From assembly GCF_008369915.1 (NCBI RefSeq), contig NZ_VSRN01000001.1:1240001-1304000 (forward strand): a stretch of DNA of 64,000 nt. The letters run 5' to 3'. A program made the translations under genes and the position numbers. Below the pieces are notes generated by a model. That model saw only the letters and a program-made list of their open reading frames with translations. It was not told the origin of the DNA and did no database searches. This document shows positions 14,260 to 63,960 of the stretch, piece after piece. The DNA comes from Dyadobacter sp. UC 10 (lineage in GTDB: Bacteria > Bacteroidota > Bacteroidia > Cytophagales > Spirosomataceae). Numbering within the stretch: the stretch's first letter is position 1; every line of letters starts with the position of its first letter.

Positions 14260-14673
14260 TTACAATGTCAGCAGATATTGGAGGAATGATTCAAGATCGA
14301 TTACTCGCAATTTCGGGAAAGGATGATTTCGCAGGACTGAAAAGGCTTTATCATTTGTTACTAAGAAATTGCAATTTGTGCAAATTGCGAGATCGACGAA
14401 TTTATTATCGTCGGGATCATTTTCTATTAAATTCCATTTAAAATAAGGTTCTGCGAATACAGTATTGGGAGAAATCGTTAATCGGTGCAGGACTTCATTA
14501 GCAGTATTGGGAGAATAGGTTCTGCTCAGTATTTCTTCGTACTCCAATAAGATTTCGCTGCTGACATACCACTCAAATCTTCCTGTAACAAAGTCAAGGT
14601 AGAGCTGGTAATAGGGACTTTTTGGTGGTACTGAGGCTCGAAGACAATTCGTATCTATTACAACTCTAACCAT
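14260..14673 (-). CDS. PIN-domain toxin
   Basis: The 137-residue product is a PIN-domain protein of the putative toxin-antitoxin type. Acidic residues of the PIN active site are visible in VVIDTNCLR, EYEEILSRTY and DDNKFVDLAI, followed by TNDKAF. Known PIN toxins cleave RNA. The ATG at 14673 overlaps the stop of the antitoxin gene by 8 nt (ATGGTTAG), so the two are translationally coupled; a longer frame to 14694 is possible but would overlap more. Both genes run opposite to permease 2. Confidence 0.85.
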   Translation of the reverse strand: MVRVVIDTNCLRASVPPKSPYYQLYLDFVTGRFEWYVSSEILLEYEEILSRTYSPNTANEVLHRLTISPNTVFAEPYFKWNLIENDPDDNKFVDLAICTNCNFLVTNDKAFSVLRNHPFPKLRVIDLESFLQYLLTL

Positions 14674-14887
14674 TGATACCAAAGCTATCGTCAATCAACA
14701 TTTTGCGATAGTCTTCGGTTGAGTAGTTTTTTTTTGCAAGAACTTTGTCCAGCTCTTTATTCACGCGCTGATCAAAGTAATTCATTAGTAATTCGCGAAC
14801 TTCCAATGCCTCCTCAAAAGTCAGTTTTTGATCAAAAAGGCGCAAAATACTGACTTGCAAGTCGTTTAATGTTTCTCTGTTTTCCAT
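14666..14887 (-). CDS. Antitoxin partner of the PIN toxin
   Basis: A 73-residue, charged, mostly helical protein (EALEVRELLMNYFDQRVNKELDKVLAKKNYS) encoded directly upstream of, and overlapping by 8 nt, a PIN toxin gene. Size and placement fit a type II antitoxin that binds and neutralises the toxin and represses the operon. I see no standard DNA-binding motif, so the assignment rests mainly on context. The ending YRKMLIDDSFGING reads into the toxin start. Confidence 0.75.
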   Translation of the reverse strand: MENRETLNDLQVSILRLFDQKLTFEEALEVRELLMNYFDQRVNKELDKVLAKKNYSTEDYRKMLIDDSFGING

Positions 14888-16222: not shown

Positions 16223-16311
16223 CTCAGACGCGGTATTATGTTCTGTTTTAATTAAAATTTAATAAATTTTGCACTGCCAGCTTCTTTTACATTTCCTTAA
16301 CAAGGTTTTAC

Positions 16312-16327
16312 AGGCATTTTACGTGCA
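16312..16327 (+). promoter_or_regulatory. Possible sigma-54 promoter of the regulator/permease-3 operon
   Basis: AGGCATTTTACGTGCA has GG-N10-GC spacing and GGCAT shared with the elements at 9271 and 6186. It ends 50 nt before the small secreted protein gene. No TGTCCG-type palindrome was found nearby. Confidence 0.25.
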
Positions 16328-16377
16328 GGACTCCGCTCACCGATACATTTGTTTCATTCACAAAAACATCGGAAATT

Positions 16378-16626
16378 ATGAAAAATGCATGGGGTTTAAT
16401 TTGTATGATCCTGCTGGTTGTCACTACTTCCACGGCGCTGCCTTCCGACGAAGCCGCTGATAAGAAGACTGGCAAGCCTGAAACAAAAAAAGCAGTAGTA
16501 CCGGCAAAGGCAGTTGAACCGGCGAAAACTGTAAACTCGGTTAAGAAGCAGATGGTAGTTCCTGCATTCCATTGGTTTGGCCCGGCTTTGGACAAGAAAA
16601 ATCCGTTAAATAAAGACAAATGTTAA
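16378..16626 (+). CDS. Small secreted Lys/Ala/Pro-rich protein
   Basis: The 82-residue product has a signal peptide (MKNAWGLICMILLVVTTSTALP) and a short mature part rich in Lys, Ala, Val and Pro with imperfect repeats (VVPAKAVEPAKTV), ending in a lone cysteine. I do not recognise a family. It lies 4 nt before the membrane-spanning regulator gene and probably starts the same operon, so it may be a partner or ligand of that regulator's periplasmic domain; that is inference. Confidence 0.65.
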   Translation: MKNAWGLICMILLVVTTSTALPSDEAADKKTGKPETKKAVVPAKAVEPAKTVNSVKKQMVVPAFHWFGPALDKKNPLNKDKC

Positions 16627-16630
16627 TCGC

Positions 16631-17557
16631 GTGCAGCTAATGATCATACCCGGCAACAGTTTTGGACTTTTACAAAAACGCCTGCATCGCTGCGTTTGGG
16701 CGCTGGTTGTCCTGTTGCCGGGTATGCAAAGTGCTTTTGCAAATAATGAGTCGGTTCGCTTTGCTGAGCACGTTAATCTAGCCCTGCGCCGCACGGCCCA
16801 CCATTTATTGCTGGAAACTGGTGACTCACTCACGAATATTCCTCCTGTAAAACAAATCGACGCCAATACTTTCGCAGTCCGCGTTGAGAGTCCCGGCGAG
16901 TATGGCGAGCTACCCCAGCTCCTGGAAGAATCCTTCGCAATCCAGAAAATTGACAGAAATTACAATGTCATGATTTTCGACTGCGAGACGGGAGCATTGC
17001 AACTGGGTTACAATATGCTCGATCTGAACCAACCGGGCGGGGTTCCCTGCCAGACCAGAGCAGAAAAATCCGGCTGTTATCTTGTTCAGGTCAGTTTTGA
17101 ACCGGTTTTGCAAAATGCGGCTACTACTGAGCCTTTCAATGCCTGGTGGATATTTCCTTTCGGCACCGGCCTCGCAGGGTTAGGCTTGTTTGCCTGGAAA
17201 CGATCAAGGAACAAGAAAACGAGCCCTTTTGATATTGAAATTGAGACCGTTCCCAAATTTGAAACCACCTTTGGAAACTCTGTTTTCAACAGTCAAAATC
17301 TGTCGCTTACTACCGGGACCGGCCAGCATCAGCTCACATACCGCGAAGCAAAACTGCTTGATTTGTTCGTGCGTCATCGCAACCAGGTACTCGAACGTGA
17401 TTTTATACTCAAATCGGTTTGGGAAGATGAAGGCATCATCGTTGGCCGGAGCGTGGATGTATTTGTGTCCAGACTTAGAAAACTGCTTGCTTCTGATCAA
17501 AGCATCAAAATCTCAGCCATTCACGGTGTAGGCTACAAAATGGAAATCCAGTCCTGA
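16631..17557 (+). CDS. Membrane-spanning regulator with C-terminal OmpR-type winged helix
   Basis: The 308-residue protein has an N-terminal signal/anchor (about residues 18-37), an extracytoplasmic domain (about 38-168) with three cysteines (C118, C140, C149), one membrane helix (about 170-189, WWIFPFGTGLAGLGLFAW) followed by basic residues, and a C-terminal winged helix (about 215-305) with LTYREAKLLDLFVRHRNQVL and VDVFVSRLRKLL. So sensing would be outside and DNA binding inside, in one chain, like ToxR/CadC but in reversed order. It starts with GTG at 16631 or ATG at 16640. It is 4 nt from the small secreted protein gene and 3 nt from permease 3, so the three are an operon. Confidence 0.85.
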   Translation: MQLMIIPGNSFGLLQKRLHRCVWALVVLLPGMQSAFANNESVRFAEHVNLALRRTAHHLLLETGDSLTNIPPVKQIDANTFAVRVESPGEYGELPQLLEESFAIQKIDRNYNVMIFDCETGALQLGYNMLDLNQPGGVPCQTRAEKSGCYLVQVSFEPVLQNAATTEPFNAWWIFPFGTGLAGLGLFAWKRSRNKKTSPFDIEIETVPKFETTFGNSVFNSQNLSLTTGTGQHQLTYREAKLLDLFVRHRNQVLERDFILKSVWEDEGIIVGRSVDVFVSRLRKLLASDQSIKISAIHGVGYKMEIQS

Positions 17558-17560
17558 TCT

Positions 17561-19981
17561 ATGCTTAAGACTTTTCTGAAAATTGCTTTCCGCCACCTCT
17601 GGCGGACCAGGATCTATGCGTTCATCAATATCTCCGGCCTGGCGATCGGGCTGACATGTTTACTGCTTGCGACAATTTACATCCTCGATGAGCAAAGCTT
17701 CGACAGTTTCCATCAAAACAATCCTGATTTATATAGAATAACCACCCGCATTAAAAATGCAGGCAAAAGTGAATCCTCAGGCGGCACAGGCCAGGTGCAG
17801 GGTCCGGCATTTCAGTCTCAAATCCCCGAAATAAGAAACTATGCCCGCATTATGGGGGGCGATATTTACGGTGATATCCGAAACAAAAGCAAGGTATTCA
17901 AACTGCAAATGCTCTTTGTCGACAGCACTTTTTTTGAGGTCTTTACATTCAAAATCCTTTCCGGCAATCAGGATAAAGCATTGCAGGATGTAAACTCCGT
18001 GGTCATTACCAGGCAAACTGCGCTTAAATTCTTCGGAAGACTGGATGTAGTCGGGGAAATACTGCGAATGAGCGCGGATCCTTCGGCGCAACGCCTCGGA
18101 AAGCCGTTGGTGATCACCGCCGTAGTGCAGGATCCGCCAGTCAACTCATCCATCCAGTTTGATGTGCTCTTCCCTTTCAGGTTTTTACAATTATCATTTG
18201 AGGATACCAACTGGTTGAATGCCTATCTAGGCACATTTGTTGTTCTGCAACCCCATGCGAACCTGGAATCAGTAACCCGCAGGCTAGATCAGATCGGCAA
18301 AATAAATGCCCGGGAGCAACTTGGCCAATATGAAAAAGAGCACGGAATCCGGCCGGAAATCAGTTACGGCCTGCAACAGATTACCGATATCCATCTCAAT
18401 CCCCAGGAAATTTCCAACCAGAACCGTGAAGCAGGTGTGATCAATGGCAGCAGGCCGATCTACTCTTTTTTGTTCTTCACTGTCGCAGGTTTCATTCTGT
18501 TCATGGCGAGCATTAATTTCATTAATATCAGCATTTCGGCGTCTGTCCGGCGGGCAAGAGAGATCGGGATCAGAAAGGTGACTGGCTCAAAGCGCGCGGA
18601 GATTTTCCTGCAATTCATTGGAGAATCTGCATTTGTCAGCCTGGCTGCGTGTATTCTGGCCCTATTGATGACCATAGCTTTTCTGCCTATTTTCAATCAG
18701 CTTGCCGGAAAACAGATCGTTACAGGATCGCTGTTTCAATTCAGGCTCCTGGGCTGGCTGGCCTTTATTTTTCTTTTTAACATCCTCTTATCAGGCGCCT
18801 ATCCCGCCTATCTGCTCTCGGGTTTCACACCCGTACAGGTGCTTTACGGGAAACTGCAATTAACAGGGAAACGCGCATCGGGAAGTGTCCTGGTGGTTTT
18901 TCAATTCACAACAGCGATTGTTCTCGGCATTGTTTCACTGGTTTTTTATCTGCAAATGCGGTTTATAAAAACGAAAGACCTGGGTTACAACCCGCAGGAG
19001 GTTGTCAAAGTCGCTATTGCAGGAAGCACAGAATCGCGCTTAATAAGGTCGAATTTTGAATCTAACCTTAAAAACAATCCCGATATAGGACAATTGTCAC
19101 TTACAGGGGAATTCGGGTTGCGGGAAGCGAAGGTAGAAGGAAAGAAATTGGAGAGCTATTATCGGACAGTCGATGAACGGTATTTGGAAATGCTGGAAAT
19201 GCAGTTAAAGACCGGCCGTAATTTCTCACAAAAATTTAAATCTGACCCCGCCAGCGCAGCAATCGTGAATGAAGCATTTGTAAAAGCCGCCGGCCTCGAT
19301 CACCCGGTCGGAAAAATAATTCAGGCAGATTCCCATTTCGGCGAGGCGCCCTTTACAATAATCGGGGTTGTTCAGGACTTCCATTATGCCTCGCTCAAGG
19401 CACGCATCCAGCCTCTGGTCATGCTGATGAGCGACCAGTTCGGCGGGGAAACGTTATTGTTTAAAATCAACCATACTGCACGGGAAAAAGCCCTTTCTGA
19501 TGTCGGAGCTGCATTTCACAGGGTTTTACCCGAAGCAGCATTCAGCTACACTTTTCTCGACGATCTGAATGCAAAAGAATATGATCAGGAAAAAAAGTGG
19601 CAGGTACTGATCAGCTACGCGACGGCAATTTCAGTATTGGTGTGTTGCCTCGGCCTGTTTGGACTCGCACATTTAGCATTGTATCAGCGGACAAAAGAAA
19701 CAGGTATACGGCTCGTTTTGGGTGCGACCGCCCTGGGGATTATCGTGTTATTTTCGAGGGACTTTTTCAAAATAATCGCAATCGCAATCCTCATCGCATG
19801 TCCTGCCGGGTATTATCTGATGAATCTTTGGCTGGGCGATTTCAGCTACCGCATTCCATTCCCGTACTGGGTGTTTCCGATTGCAGGTACAGTTGCGATA
19901 ATCGTTACCTTATTGACAGTGGGTACCATGGGTGCGCGCGCAGCGGCCGTCAATCCGGCGCTATCCCTGCGCTCCGAATAA
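17561..19981 (+). CDS. FtsX/MacB-type ABC transporter permease 3
   Basis: An 806-residue paralogue of the large permease family: N-terminal helix (about 18-42), MacB-like periplasmic domain, central helices with REIGIRKVTGSKRAEIFLQF, second periplasmic domain, and C-terminal helices ending in NPALSLRSE. The cytoplasmic motif of the second half (KETGIRLVLGATALGII) is slightly diverged. It starts 3 nt after the membrane regulator gene, which may control it. The ATPase and TolC-like genes follow after a 223-bp gap that holds a separate regulatory site. Confidence 0.9.
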   Translation: MLKTFLKIAFRHLWRTRIYAFINISGLAIGLTCLLLATIYILDEQSFDSFHQNNPDLYRITTRIKNAGKSESSGGTGQVQGPAFQSQIPEIRNYARIMGGDIYGDIRNKSKVFKLQMLFVDSTFFEVFTFKILSGNQDKALQDVNSVVITRQTALKFFGRLDVVGEILRMSADPSAQRLGKPLVITAVVQDPPVNSSIQFDVLFPFRFLQLSFEDTNWLNAYLGTFVVLQPHANLESVTRRLDQIGKINAREQLGQYEKEHGIRPEISYGLQQITDIHLNPQEISNQNREAGVINGSRPIYSFLFFTVAGFILFMASINFINISISASVRRAREIGIRKVTGSKRAEIFLQFIGESAFVSLAACILALLMTIAFLPIFNQLAGKQIVTGSLFQFRLLGWLAFIFLFNILLSGAYPAYLLSGFTPVQVLYGKLQLTGKRASGSVLVVFQFTTAIVLGIVSLVFYLQMRFIKTKDLGYNPQEVVKVAIAGSTESRLIRSNFESNLKNNPDIGQLSLTGEFGLREAKVEGKKLESYYRTVDERYLEMLEMQLKTGRNFSQKFKSDPASAAIVNEAFVKAAGLDHPVGKIIQADSHFGEAPFTIIGVVQDFHYASLKARIQPLVMLMSDQFGGETLLFKINHTAREKALSDVGAAFHRVLPEAAFSYTFLDDLNAKEYDQEKKWQVLISYATAISVLVCCLGLFGLAHLALYQRTKETGIRLVLGATALGIIVLFSRDFFKIIAIAILIACPAGYYLMNLWLGDFSYRIPFPYWVFPIAGTVAIIVTLLTVGTMGARAAAVNPALSLRSE

Positions 19982-20204: not shown

Positions 20205-20867
20205 ATGATTAAGCTAGAAAAGATATCAAAGTATTACCCGGCAGGATTTGGCAAAACCTACGTTTTGCGTCACATTGATTTACACATTAAGGAAGGTGAA
20301 TTTGTTTCGATTATGGGTCCCTCCGGTTCGGGCAAATCGACCTTGTTACATATCCTGGGCTTGCTCGAAGAACCTTCCGAGGGAGAATATCTTTTCCTCG
20401 ACGAGCCTGTTCAGAAACTTTCTGAAAAGAAACGGACGGAGCTACACCGCCACCATATCGGATTTGTATTCCAGGCATACCATCTGATCGACGAGCTGAC
20501 GGTTTATGAGAACATTGAGACGCCGCTTCTATATAAAGGAACTTCGTCCTCCGAGCGAAAAAGCCGGGTTGCAGAGTTGCTGGACCGTTTCAATATGGTT
20601 GCAAAAAAAGACCTTTTCCCACATCAGTTATCAGGAGGTCAGCAGCAGCTGGTAGGCGTGGCACGTGCCATCGTCCATAACCCAAAAGTGATTTTTGCGG
20701 ATGAACCAACGGGCAACCTGCATTCGGAACAGTCAATCGAGATCATGGAATTATTTCAAAAATTGAATCAGGAAGATAAAGTAACAATTGTACAAGTAAC
20801 TCATTCAGAAACGAATGCCGGATACGGCAATAGGGTTGTCCGCCTGAAAGACGGGTGGTTAGCCTGA
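20205..20867 (+). CDS. MacB/LolD-like ABC transporter ATPase
   Basis: A 220-residue ATP-binding subunit with Walker A GPSGSGKST, Q-loop GFVFQAYHLIDELTVYEN, signature LSGGQQQ, Walker B VIFADEPTG and H-loop VTHSE. It belongs to the group serving FtsX/MacB/LolCE permeases and would power one or more of the nearby permeases at the inner membrane. Two positions are unusual: the signature continues QQQLVGVARA where family members normally have QQQRVAIARA, and the D-loop reads GNLHS instead of GNLDS. It is followed after 15 nt by the TolC-like gene, so these form an operon. Confidence 0.92.
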   Translation: MIKLEKISKYYPAGFGKTYVLRHIDLHIKEGEFVSIMGPSGSGKSTLLHILGLLEEPSEGEYLFLDEPVQKLSEKKRTELHRHHIGFVFQAYHLIDELTVYENIETPLLYKGTSSSERKSRVAELLDRFNMVAKKDLFPHQLSGGQQQLVGVARAIVHNPKVIFADEPTGNLHSEQSIEIMELFQKLNQEDKVTIVQVTHSETNAGYGNRVVRLKDGWLA

Positions 20868-61560: not shown

Positions 61561-63960
61561 CTATTCGGCCCGCAGGGCTTTGACAGGATTCATTAATGCC
61601 GCTTTGATACTCTGAAAACTGATCGTAAGAAGCGCGACAATAATCGCCATTGCGCCGGCAGTCAGAAAAATACCCCACTCCATATCGATGCGATAGGCAA
61701 AATCCCGGAGCCAGGTGGTAACCGCCCACCAGGCAATGGGCGAAGCGATCAGAATCGAAATTAACACAAGCCGGATAAAATCGCCCGATAATAAGGCTAC
61801 AATACCGGCCACCGAAGCGCCCATTACTTTTCTTACACCAATCTCCTTGAACCTACGTTCTGCTGAATACGAAGCCAGGCCGAACAGTCCGAGGCAGGAT
61901 ATAAATATGGCCAATGCAGCCAGCACACCTACTATTTCACTCACCTGGCTGTCGGCGCGATACAGTTCGGCAAAATGTTCGTCGAGGAAAGAATAAGTAA
62001 ATGGCTGATCAGGAACAATCTTTTCCCAGATTGCTTTGATGGCAGCAACCGATTCTTTCGTCTGTGCACCCCTTATTTTGACCGACATTTCGGAGTACCC
62101 CCAGTCCTTCTGATTGAACAGGCAAAGCGTCTCAACCTTGTGATGCAGGGAATTGAAATTGAAATCTTCCGAAATACCTACGATCGTCGACAGGGAATCC
62201 ATACCGCCAAAACCGAAACGCTTTCCGATCAGCGTTTGCATGGTGAGCGTCGGCTCTTCTTCTAACAGTTTTTTAGCGAGAGATTTGTTGATGATGTACG
62301 TTTTTGCATTATCAGCCACACTATTTGTAAAGTTTCGACCGGCGATCAGTTTGATCTTGTACAATGTGAGATAATCGGGATCTACCACAACCTGCGACGA
62401 TGCGATCGATTTCAAAGGGCCTGTTCCCTGAAATCGCACACCGGTCTGGTGAAAATTATTTCCGAGCCGCTGCTGTGAACCGGTCACTGCGGCGATTTGT
62501 GGTGCAGCCAGTAACTCTTGTTTCAGCGCCTCATATTTTGAGTCCGATTTGGAGTCAAGTGGAACGATCACCACCTGTTCCTTGTCAAACCCCGGATTTT
62601 TATCGGTCATAAACCGGAGTTGCCTCACCGCAAATCCAGTTGCGATAATCAGGAACACCGCGCTGGTAAATTGGGTGATCACCAGCACATTCCTGAATGT
62701 ACCCTTACCAGTCCGCAATGTTCCTTTCAAAACCTTTACCGGCTCGAAAGAAGAAAGAAATGCTGCAGGGTACAAACCCGAAAAAATACCGATCAACACC
62801 GTTCCAGCCACAATGATCAGGAGCAGTCCGGGATTTGAAAAAAAGGAGAAATCGAGCTTGCGCTGACTGAAATTTGCCACCGGAGAAATTACCAGTTTAA
62901 CGATTGCCAGTGCAAGTATCAATGCTATAAAGCACAGGAAAACGGATTCGCCTATAAACTGGGCCGATAACTGAAACCGCTGCGCACCGATCGATTTTCT
63001 GATACCCACCTCTTTTGCCCGCCCCGAAGACCGTGCCGTGGAAAGGTTCATGAAATTCACACAGGCTATAACGAGCACAATGATCGCGATGACGGAGAAG
63101 ATATAAGTATACTTCTGATCAAATTTTTGATAGTTAATGTAGTCGTGGGTAATATCTGTTGATTTGGCGTGAATGTCCTTCATCGGTTGCAGGAACAATT
63201 CATAAAATTTCCAGCCATCTCCCTTCATATGCTTTTGCAGAAACGAAGGAAATTTCTTTTCAAGCGCTGCGACATTCGTACCCTTTGCAAGTTCCAGGTA
63301 GGTTACCAGCCAGTTGCCACCCCAGTTATCCATAAAGTCGGGCCGGACAATGGTACTAAAAGAAAATAGCGCGTCGAACTGCAGATGTGAGTTTGCCGGG
63401 ACGTTTTCCATGATCCCGGTTACCTTCATCGCAAGGGTATCGCTGCCGTAATGGTGGATCGTTTGCCCGATCGGGTCTTCTTCTCCAAAAATACGTGCTG
63501 CACTGGCCCTTGATAATACCACGCTGTTTGGCTCTTTGAGCACATTCTGTTTTTCACCTTCCATGAGGGTGAAGTCGAACATGCTGAAAAAATTCTGATC
63601 TGTCCACAAGATTGTCGGCAGCTCTACTTTTTTTTCACCCTTCGTGATCATCAGATCTCTCGAGGCGTTAATGCGTACAAAGTTGAGTATCTCGGGAAAA
63701 TCCTGCTTCAAAGTCGGCCCCATCGGAAACATGGAGAGTGCAACTTTTTGAGGCGCGACCATTCCTTCAAACTTCTGTACTTCATCGAGCCGATAAAGGT
63801 TTCTGCTATGGATTTTATCGAAACCCTTCTCGTAAAAAACGAACAACATAATCACGATACAGGCAGCCATACCGACCGCCAGCCCTATGATGTTAATAGC
63901 CGAAAAAACTTTGTTCTTCCAGATATTACGAAAGGCGATTTTGAGATAGTTTTTCAGCAT
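61561..63960 (-). CDS. FtsX/MacB-type ABC transporter permease 4
   Basis: A 799-residue paralogue of the permeases at 9.3, 11.8 and 17.6 kb: MLKNYLKIAFRNIWKNKVFS at the start, N-terminal helix, MacB-like periplasmic domain, central helices with AKEVGIRKSIGAQRFQLSAQF, second domain, and C-terminal helices with FKEIGVRKVMGASVAGIV, ending MNPVKALRAE. The upstream region runs off the window, so its promoter is not seen. No ATPase adjoins it here; the MacB-like ATPase at 20.2 kb or another could serve it. Confidence 0.92.
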   Translation of the reverse strand: MLKNYLKIAFRNIWKNKVFSAINIIGLAVGMAACIVIMLFVFYEKGFDKIHSRNLYRLDEVQKFEGMVAPQKVALSMFPMGPTLKQDFPEILNFVRINASRDLMITKGEKKVELPTILWTDQNFFSMFDFTLMEGEKQNVLKEPNSVVLSRASAARIFGEEDPIGQTIHHYGSDTLAMKVTGIMENVPANSHLQFDALFSFSTIVRPDFMDNWGGNWLVTYLELAKGTNVAALEKKFPSFLQKHMKGDGWKFYELFLQPMKDIHAKSTDITHDYINYQKFDQKYTYIFSVIAIIVLVIACVNFMNLSTARSSGRAKEVGIRKSIGAQRFQLSAQFIGESVFLCFIALILALAIVKLVISPVANFSQRKLDFSFFSNPGLLLIIVAGTVLIGIFSGLYPAAFLSSFEPVKVLKGTLRTGKGTFRNVLVITQFTSAVFLIIATGFAVRQLRFMTDKNPGFDKEQVVIVPLDSKSDSKYEALKQELLAAPQIAAVTGSQQRLGNNFHQTGVRFQGTGPLKSIASSQVVVDPDYLTLYKIKLIAGRNFTNSVADNAKTYIINKSLAKKLLEEEPTLTMQTLIGKRFGFGGMDSLSTIVGISEDFNFNSLHHKVETLCLFNQKDWGYSEMSVKIRGAQTKESVAAIKAIWEKIVPDQPFTYSFLDEHFAELYRADSQVSEIVGVLAALAIFISCLGLFGLASYSAERRFKEIGVRKVMGASVAGIVALLSGDFIRLVLISILIASPIAWWAVTTWLRDFAYRIDMEWGIFLTAGAMAIIVALLTISFQSIKAALMNPVKALRAE

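Follow-up and report, generated by a model that had tools for sequence, protein, structure and literature searches.

A transmembrane one-component regulator with an RprX-type sensor, an RprY-type winged helix and a predicted TTWACA operator in Dyadobacter

The window analysed here, a stretch of 64,000 nucleotides from Dyadobacter sp. UC 10, encodes a 308-aa transmembrane regulator that is a member of a family common to many Bacteroidota, not an isolated oddity. The explanation that we favor, and consider probable, is that this protein is a self-activating, membrane-anchored one-component regulator, which joins an RprX-type sensor to an RprY-type winged helix, reads an operator made of TTWACA repeats, and has a small regulon. 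An envelope signal would alter the sensor dimer, the winged helices would then bind head-to-tail to the TTWACA repeats at 16285-16323, and transcription would start from a -7 promoter element (TAnnTTTG) at a fixed position. The genes under control would be the regulator's own operon (an exported partner, the regulator itself and, here, an ADOP-type permease), together with a few unlinked genes whose products are exported or lie in the membrane. The features of the locus are as follows, in window coordinates.

16285..16323, plus strand: predicted operator, direct repeats TTTTACA, TTAACA, TTTTACA and TTTTACG (cores at 16286, 16297, 16307 and 16318)
16344..16351, plus strand: predicted -7 promoter element of the Bacteroidota type, TACATTTG, which fits TAnnTTTG; distance to the operator start 59 bp
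16378..16626, plus strand: gene for the 82-aa exported partner, a reduced version of an exported protein of ~150 aa; ends in Cys
16631..17557, plus strand: gene for the transmembrane regulator, 308 aa; GTG start, in-frame alternative ATG at 16640
16742..17116, plus strand: RprX-type periplasmic sensor domain of the regulator, residues 38-162 (~125 aa)
16982-16984, 17048-17050 and 17075-17077, plus strand: sensor cysteines C118, C140 and C149
17132..17197, plus strand: transmembrane helix, about residues 168-189, then KRSRNKK
17261..17548, plus strand: OmpR/RprY-type winged helix, residues 211-306
17561..19981, plus strand: gene for the ADOP-type MacB/FtsX permease, 806 aa, last in the tight cluster

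The first-pass annotation had described a cluster of three open reading frames separated by gaps of 4 nt and 3 nt, and the coordinates that we re-derived are identical. Elsewhere in the window, on the minus strand at 14260-14887, lies what looks by eye like a PIN-type nuclease (144 aa), with a small protein of 73 aa encoded upstream of it; the two may form a toxin-antitoxin pair.

The sole Pfam domain of the regulator is Trans_reg_C (PF00486; residues 234-304, E 3e-17), and histidine kinase and receiver domains are absent by Pfam. Its AlphaFold model consists of an N-terminal helix (11-32), an alpha/beta domain (~39-156), a second helix (168-194) and a winged helix (211-306), the last of which was matched by Foldseek to domains of ToxR, CadC and PhoB. 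Pfam and AlphaFold thus agree with the architecture initially read from the sequence, namely a signal or anchor, an extracytoplasmic domain (with three cysteines, which are indeed present), one membrane helix and a C-terminal OmpR-type winged helix. The predicted topology, with the sensor outside and the winged helix inside, is a consistent arrangement because KRSRNKK follows the second helix (positive inside) and because eight relatives of the regulator (L107, L108, L110, L113, L114, L116, L127 and L129) have a lipobox-like N-terminus (e.g. LLSC, LISC). In these eight the sensor may be both lipid-anchored and membrane-spanning, i.e. part of a lipoprotein transcription factor. The hydrophobic segment after the sensor is kept in the aligned relatives, which together with the predicted topology supports the earlier idea of a one-protein envelope sensor with the ToxR order reversed.

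Searching the host genome with a profile of the sensor domain returned two matches only, the regulator gene (1.6e-51) and an RprX kinase (2.6e-10); RprX proteins of other genomes matched at about 1e-9 to 1e-15. This kinase (L070:5533-6786) forms an RprXY pair with an OmpR-type regulator (L070:4850-5611), the gene of the former overlapping the start of that of the latter, and in other genomes the sensor-matched kinases adjoin an rprY-type gene, with one exception. For the regulator's winged helix, the best NCBIfam model is RprY. A winged-helix tree grouped 22 of the 23 family members, with RprY and four other regulators as the sister clade; since the family lies beside these and is not nested inside, the tree gave no support for descent from RprY itself. 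Judged by sequence, then, each half of the regulator has its two-component relatives within the same genome, and the protein has the appearance of a two-component system condensed into a single chain.

Of 46 aligned members of the family, 41 have both C118 and C149 and five have neither; none has one of the two alone, a pattern from which a disulfide is predicted. The same alignment shows no variation at C140, R143, R53 and D65, and RprX retains only the equivalent of C118. The predicted C118-C149 disulfide might take part in sensing, and control by redox through these cysteines would be an attractive mode of action. A specific version would be a thiol-based envelope sensor, in which the C118-C149 disulfide and C140 answer the periplasmic redox or folding state and the terminal Cys of the Dyadobacter partner docks on the sensor by a mixed disulfide; we regard this version as doubtful. 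The sensor domain modelled alone gave a confident fold (pLDDT 87.5, pTM 0.82), and comparing it with the PDB by Foldseek and VIA-align returned no confident match, so no class of ligand could be named. On the question of a PDC/Cache fold, the best Foldseek match had an E of 0.11 and the best VIA-align match a Z of 6.5, the latter within noise, and kinase sensors scored only Z 4.2-4.5.

Relatives of near full length occur in 40 of the 48 Dyadobacter genomes and in 85 of 121 genomes of the host's family, as well as in named Dyadobacter and in Aquimarina. A sample of 395 genomes from the phylum shows them in further orders and families of the class as well, which is a lower bound as few candidates were scored per genome. 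In this sample the lengths of open reading frames matching the sensor profile are bimodal, with the regulator family at ~280-325 aa and the RprX kinases at ~414-451 aa. Paralogues also exist: one locus (L157, G033:C30:613700-617800) carries a second regulator transcribed away from a BNR-propeller-like gene, the intervening DNA holding a perfect operator, and further paralogues are present in G001 and G463. In another genome (G006:C1:4039760-4040580) the coding sequence of the regulator is divided between two frames, open for 169 and 173 aa, and may be a broken copy. This split relative, and the resemblance of the sensor and winged helix to two-component parts, would fit a vestigial arrangement, the decayed remnant of a two-component system without function. 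We consider such a reading extremely improbable given the regulator's dN/dS of about 0.1-0.2 (purifying selection), its wide distribution, its invariant residues and the conserved operator.

That predicted operator consists of TTWACA direct repeats 10-11 bp apart, upstream of the operon, in the layout TTTTACA-N5-TTAACA-N3-TTTTACA-N4-TTTTACG (core spacing of 11, 10 and 11 bp). With at most one mismatch it was found in 39/40 Dyadobacter genomes that have the regulator versus 1/8 of those without (Fisher 8.5e-7), and in 73/85 versus 1/36 genomes of the family (Fisher 5e-19), both P values overstating independence because the genomes are related. Twelve family genomes have the regulator and no operator within one mismatch. 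In other genera, operator-like repeats (up to three mismatches) lie just upstream of the regulator at 10 of 32 loci versus 1 of 597 control windows, the single control window with such repeats being the start of the L104 operon. We also considered whether the repeats could be bound by another OmpR-type protein, such as RprY or a paralogue, the membrane protein being merely one of the genes regulated. The winged helices of RprY and of four regulators in the host genome are similar and may read similar DNA, but RprX is present in all eight Dyadobacter genomes that lack the regulator, and seven of these lack the operator. RprX thus persists without the regulator while the operator is mostly gone, so it is the membrane protein, rather than RprXY, that the operator tracks. 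This argues against RprY as the operator's owner, as does the adjacency of operator-like repeats to the regulator in distant genera, and we judge binding by another protein to be quite unlikely. Our preferred reading is that the repeats at 16285-16323 are the regulator's predicted binding site, to which it would bind directly.

The promoter element is placed with the same regularity. At 28 of 28 related sites TAnnTTTG lies at nearly the same distance from the operator start, 59 bp in 26 of them and 60 bp in the other two, and the searched stretch contained it at no further position. Between the repeats and the gene the sequence of related loci has diverged and the position of TAnnTTTG has been kept. 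The element is also at 59 or 60 bp in 13 of 20 secondary sites (18 of 20 with one base relaxed) and in all four sites from other genera. The repeats stop about 20 bp before it, near the -33 region, where an activator of the PhoB/OmpR type usually sits. We therefore infer activation by the regulator rather than repression. The same protein and operator could instead keep the operon repressed until an envelope signal relieves it, which we think unlikely, since a repressor needs no fixed spacing and the fixed distance seen here is that of an activator box of this class. What speaks for repression is that the operator adjoins the promoter, and that Rsp of Neisseria is described as a repressor of pilA (PMC10269533).

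All searches for a regulon within genomes were pattern searches. Across the 6.9 Mb of the host genome, a single site matches the three-repeat pattern perfectly. Allowing up to three mismatches yielded seven sites, four of which fall inside open reading frames without a -7 element; a reversed-pattern control gives about as many matches at two to three mismatches, so these four are what background leads one to expect. The three intergenic sites precede the regulator's own operon, the gene at L135 and the gene at C1:6458131. The L135 site (two mismatches, imperfect -7 element) belongs to what appears by eye to be a serine hydrolase of the beta-lactamase fold, and the C1:6458131 site (three mismatches, perfect -7 element) stands before a second ADOP-type permease gene. 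These two are only suggestive as members of the regulon.

Operators unlinked to the regulator in other Dyadobacter precede genes that, named by sequence similarity, encode FKBP-type proteins, Reg_prop proteins, BNR propellers, c10 exported proteins and ADOP permeases (the last at loci L144 and L153). In distant genera the neighbors of the regulator itself are genes for FKBP, YceI, propeller, serine hydrolase and c10 proteins. That the same families are reached by position in distant genera and by operator in Dyadobacter is the strongest independent support for the link between regulator and operator. The regulator very probably acts on its own operon as well as on a small number of exported or membrane protein genes elsewhere in the genome.

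The small protein encoded before the regulator had been noted as a tiny exported product tied to it, and this was borne out. It is not an orphan novelty, for in most Dyadobacter the upstream gene encodes an exported protein of ~150 aa, of which the window's lineage keeps only the signal peptide and the tail (..PxFHWFGP....KDKC) with a Lys/Ala/Pro linker between them. The 82-aa gene has a dN/dS of about 0.2-0.3, indicating purifying selection. Comparison of the partner with Pfam gave no match. A GldM-like C-terminal fold, which we had considered for the longer form, found no support in Pfam, and a profile search of solved structures gave only a few chance or designed-repeat-protein matches. In some relatives a second exported gene precedes the partner, and hhalign finds a weak similarity between the two (E 1e-4, probability 55). 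By a home-made hydropathy rule, upstream neighbors were exported in 24/32 versus 68/211 cases.

The large FtsX permease reported downstream was likewise recovered, with Pfam matches to MacB_PCD and FtsX; its nearest relatives are the duplicated permeases of the ADOP type. The gene adjoins the regulator intact in 12 of 29 other Dyadobacter loci, as a remnant in 3, and not at all in 14, and it seldom does so outside the host's family. An obligate partnership was thus ruled out, and this patchiness indicates that the regulator does not exist for the permease. Permeases of this type are numerous in the genome. About nineteen ADOP-type MacB/FtsX genes lie on the minus strand from window position 62047-63903 onward (C1:1302047-1353433 of the host genome), and the whole genome has 72 MacB_PCD matches. 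At 20205-20867 the window also encodes an ABC ATPase whose closest models are DarD/LolD; it is 97-100% identical among Dyadobacter, the adjoining genes having diverged, and may serve many permeases that have no ATPase of their own.

The first-pass annotation had further proposed that the operon holds the sensor's candidate ligand and target. Stated in full, the exported partner would be a ligand or co-sensor (cf. ToxS for ToxR) and the adjacent permease a dedicated target, more an addition to our preferred explanation than an alternative to it. A Cys-terminal partner is encoded directly upstream of the regulator in 29/29 other Dyadobacter loci, and the partner may contact the sensor. The partner differs from genus to genus, though, and is mostly lost in the window's lineage, and it could equally be just another regulated gene. 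As for the target, the operators before ADOP permease genes at unlinked loci lend some support to permeases as targets, but a dedicated target is contradicted by the 17 of 29 loci in which the permease is missing or broken. Taken as a whole, the proposal seems to us unlikely. What carries the functional argument is the operator, the kinship with RprX/RprY and the regulon beyond this locus.

If our preferred explanation of a self-activating regulator is right, its predicted operator, promoter and regulon are now defined to the base pair across many genomes. Both a route from two proteins to one and the action of a membrane-tethered winged helix on its promoter become directly testable in bacteria that can be cultured in the laboratory, and the operator link offers an initial clue to function for several families of exported Bacteroidota proteins that had no assigned role. 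In the mainly open-access literature on Bacteroidota that we searched, we found no described family with such a domain order, operator and regulon. The kind of protein, a membrane-anchored one-component regulator made of two-component parts, is already known; the family, operator and regulon are undescribed within that literature.

A transmembrane transcription regulator is defined as a single protein that holds a DNA-binding domain together with one or more transmembrane regions; such regulators are numerous, and their origin from two-component systems has been suggested (PMC10269533). By Pfam, AlphaFold and its aligned relatives, the protein described here is one. Within the Bacteroidota its counterpart is RprX/RprY, with a homologous periplasmic sensor and a homologous OmpR-type winged helix. 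It differs from that pair in being one protein instead of two, without kinase and receiver, in having C140 and C149, both missing from RprX, and in an operator that is absent from 7/8 relatives with RprX but without the regulator. The 806-aa permease aligns along the entire ADOP model (TIGR03434) and, with a score of 224 against a curated cut-off of 622, is a distant relative falling below it. Rsp of Neisseria gonorrhoeae, which unites the PilS sensor and the PilR DNA-binding domain in one protein (PMC10269533), likewise has a kinase's membrane sensor at its N-terminus and a response regulator's DNA-binding domain at its C-terminus. By its description, Rsp uses other sensor and DNA-binding families, whereas the present family is Bacteroidota-wide and has a conserved operator. 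ToxR, CadC and TcpP are likewise single proteins that cross the membrane with one helix and carry a periplasmic sensor and an OmpR-type winged helix, and ToxR and TcpP have an adjoining gene for a periplasmic partner (ToxS, TcpH). The sensor of the Dyadobacter regulator is of the RprX type, in contrast, and its partner is without a Pfam match. In ToxR and CadC the winged helix is N-terminal, followed by the membrane helix and a C-terminal periplasmic domain; in the Dyadobacter regulator this order is reversed, with the winged helix (211-306) after the membrane helix.
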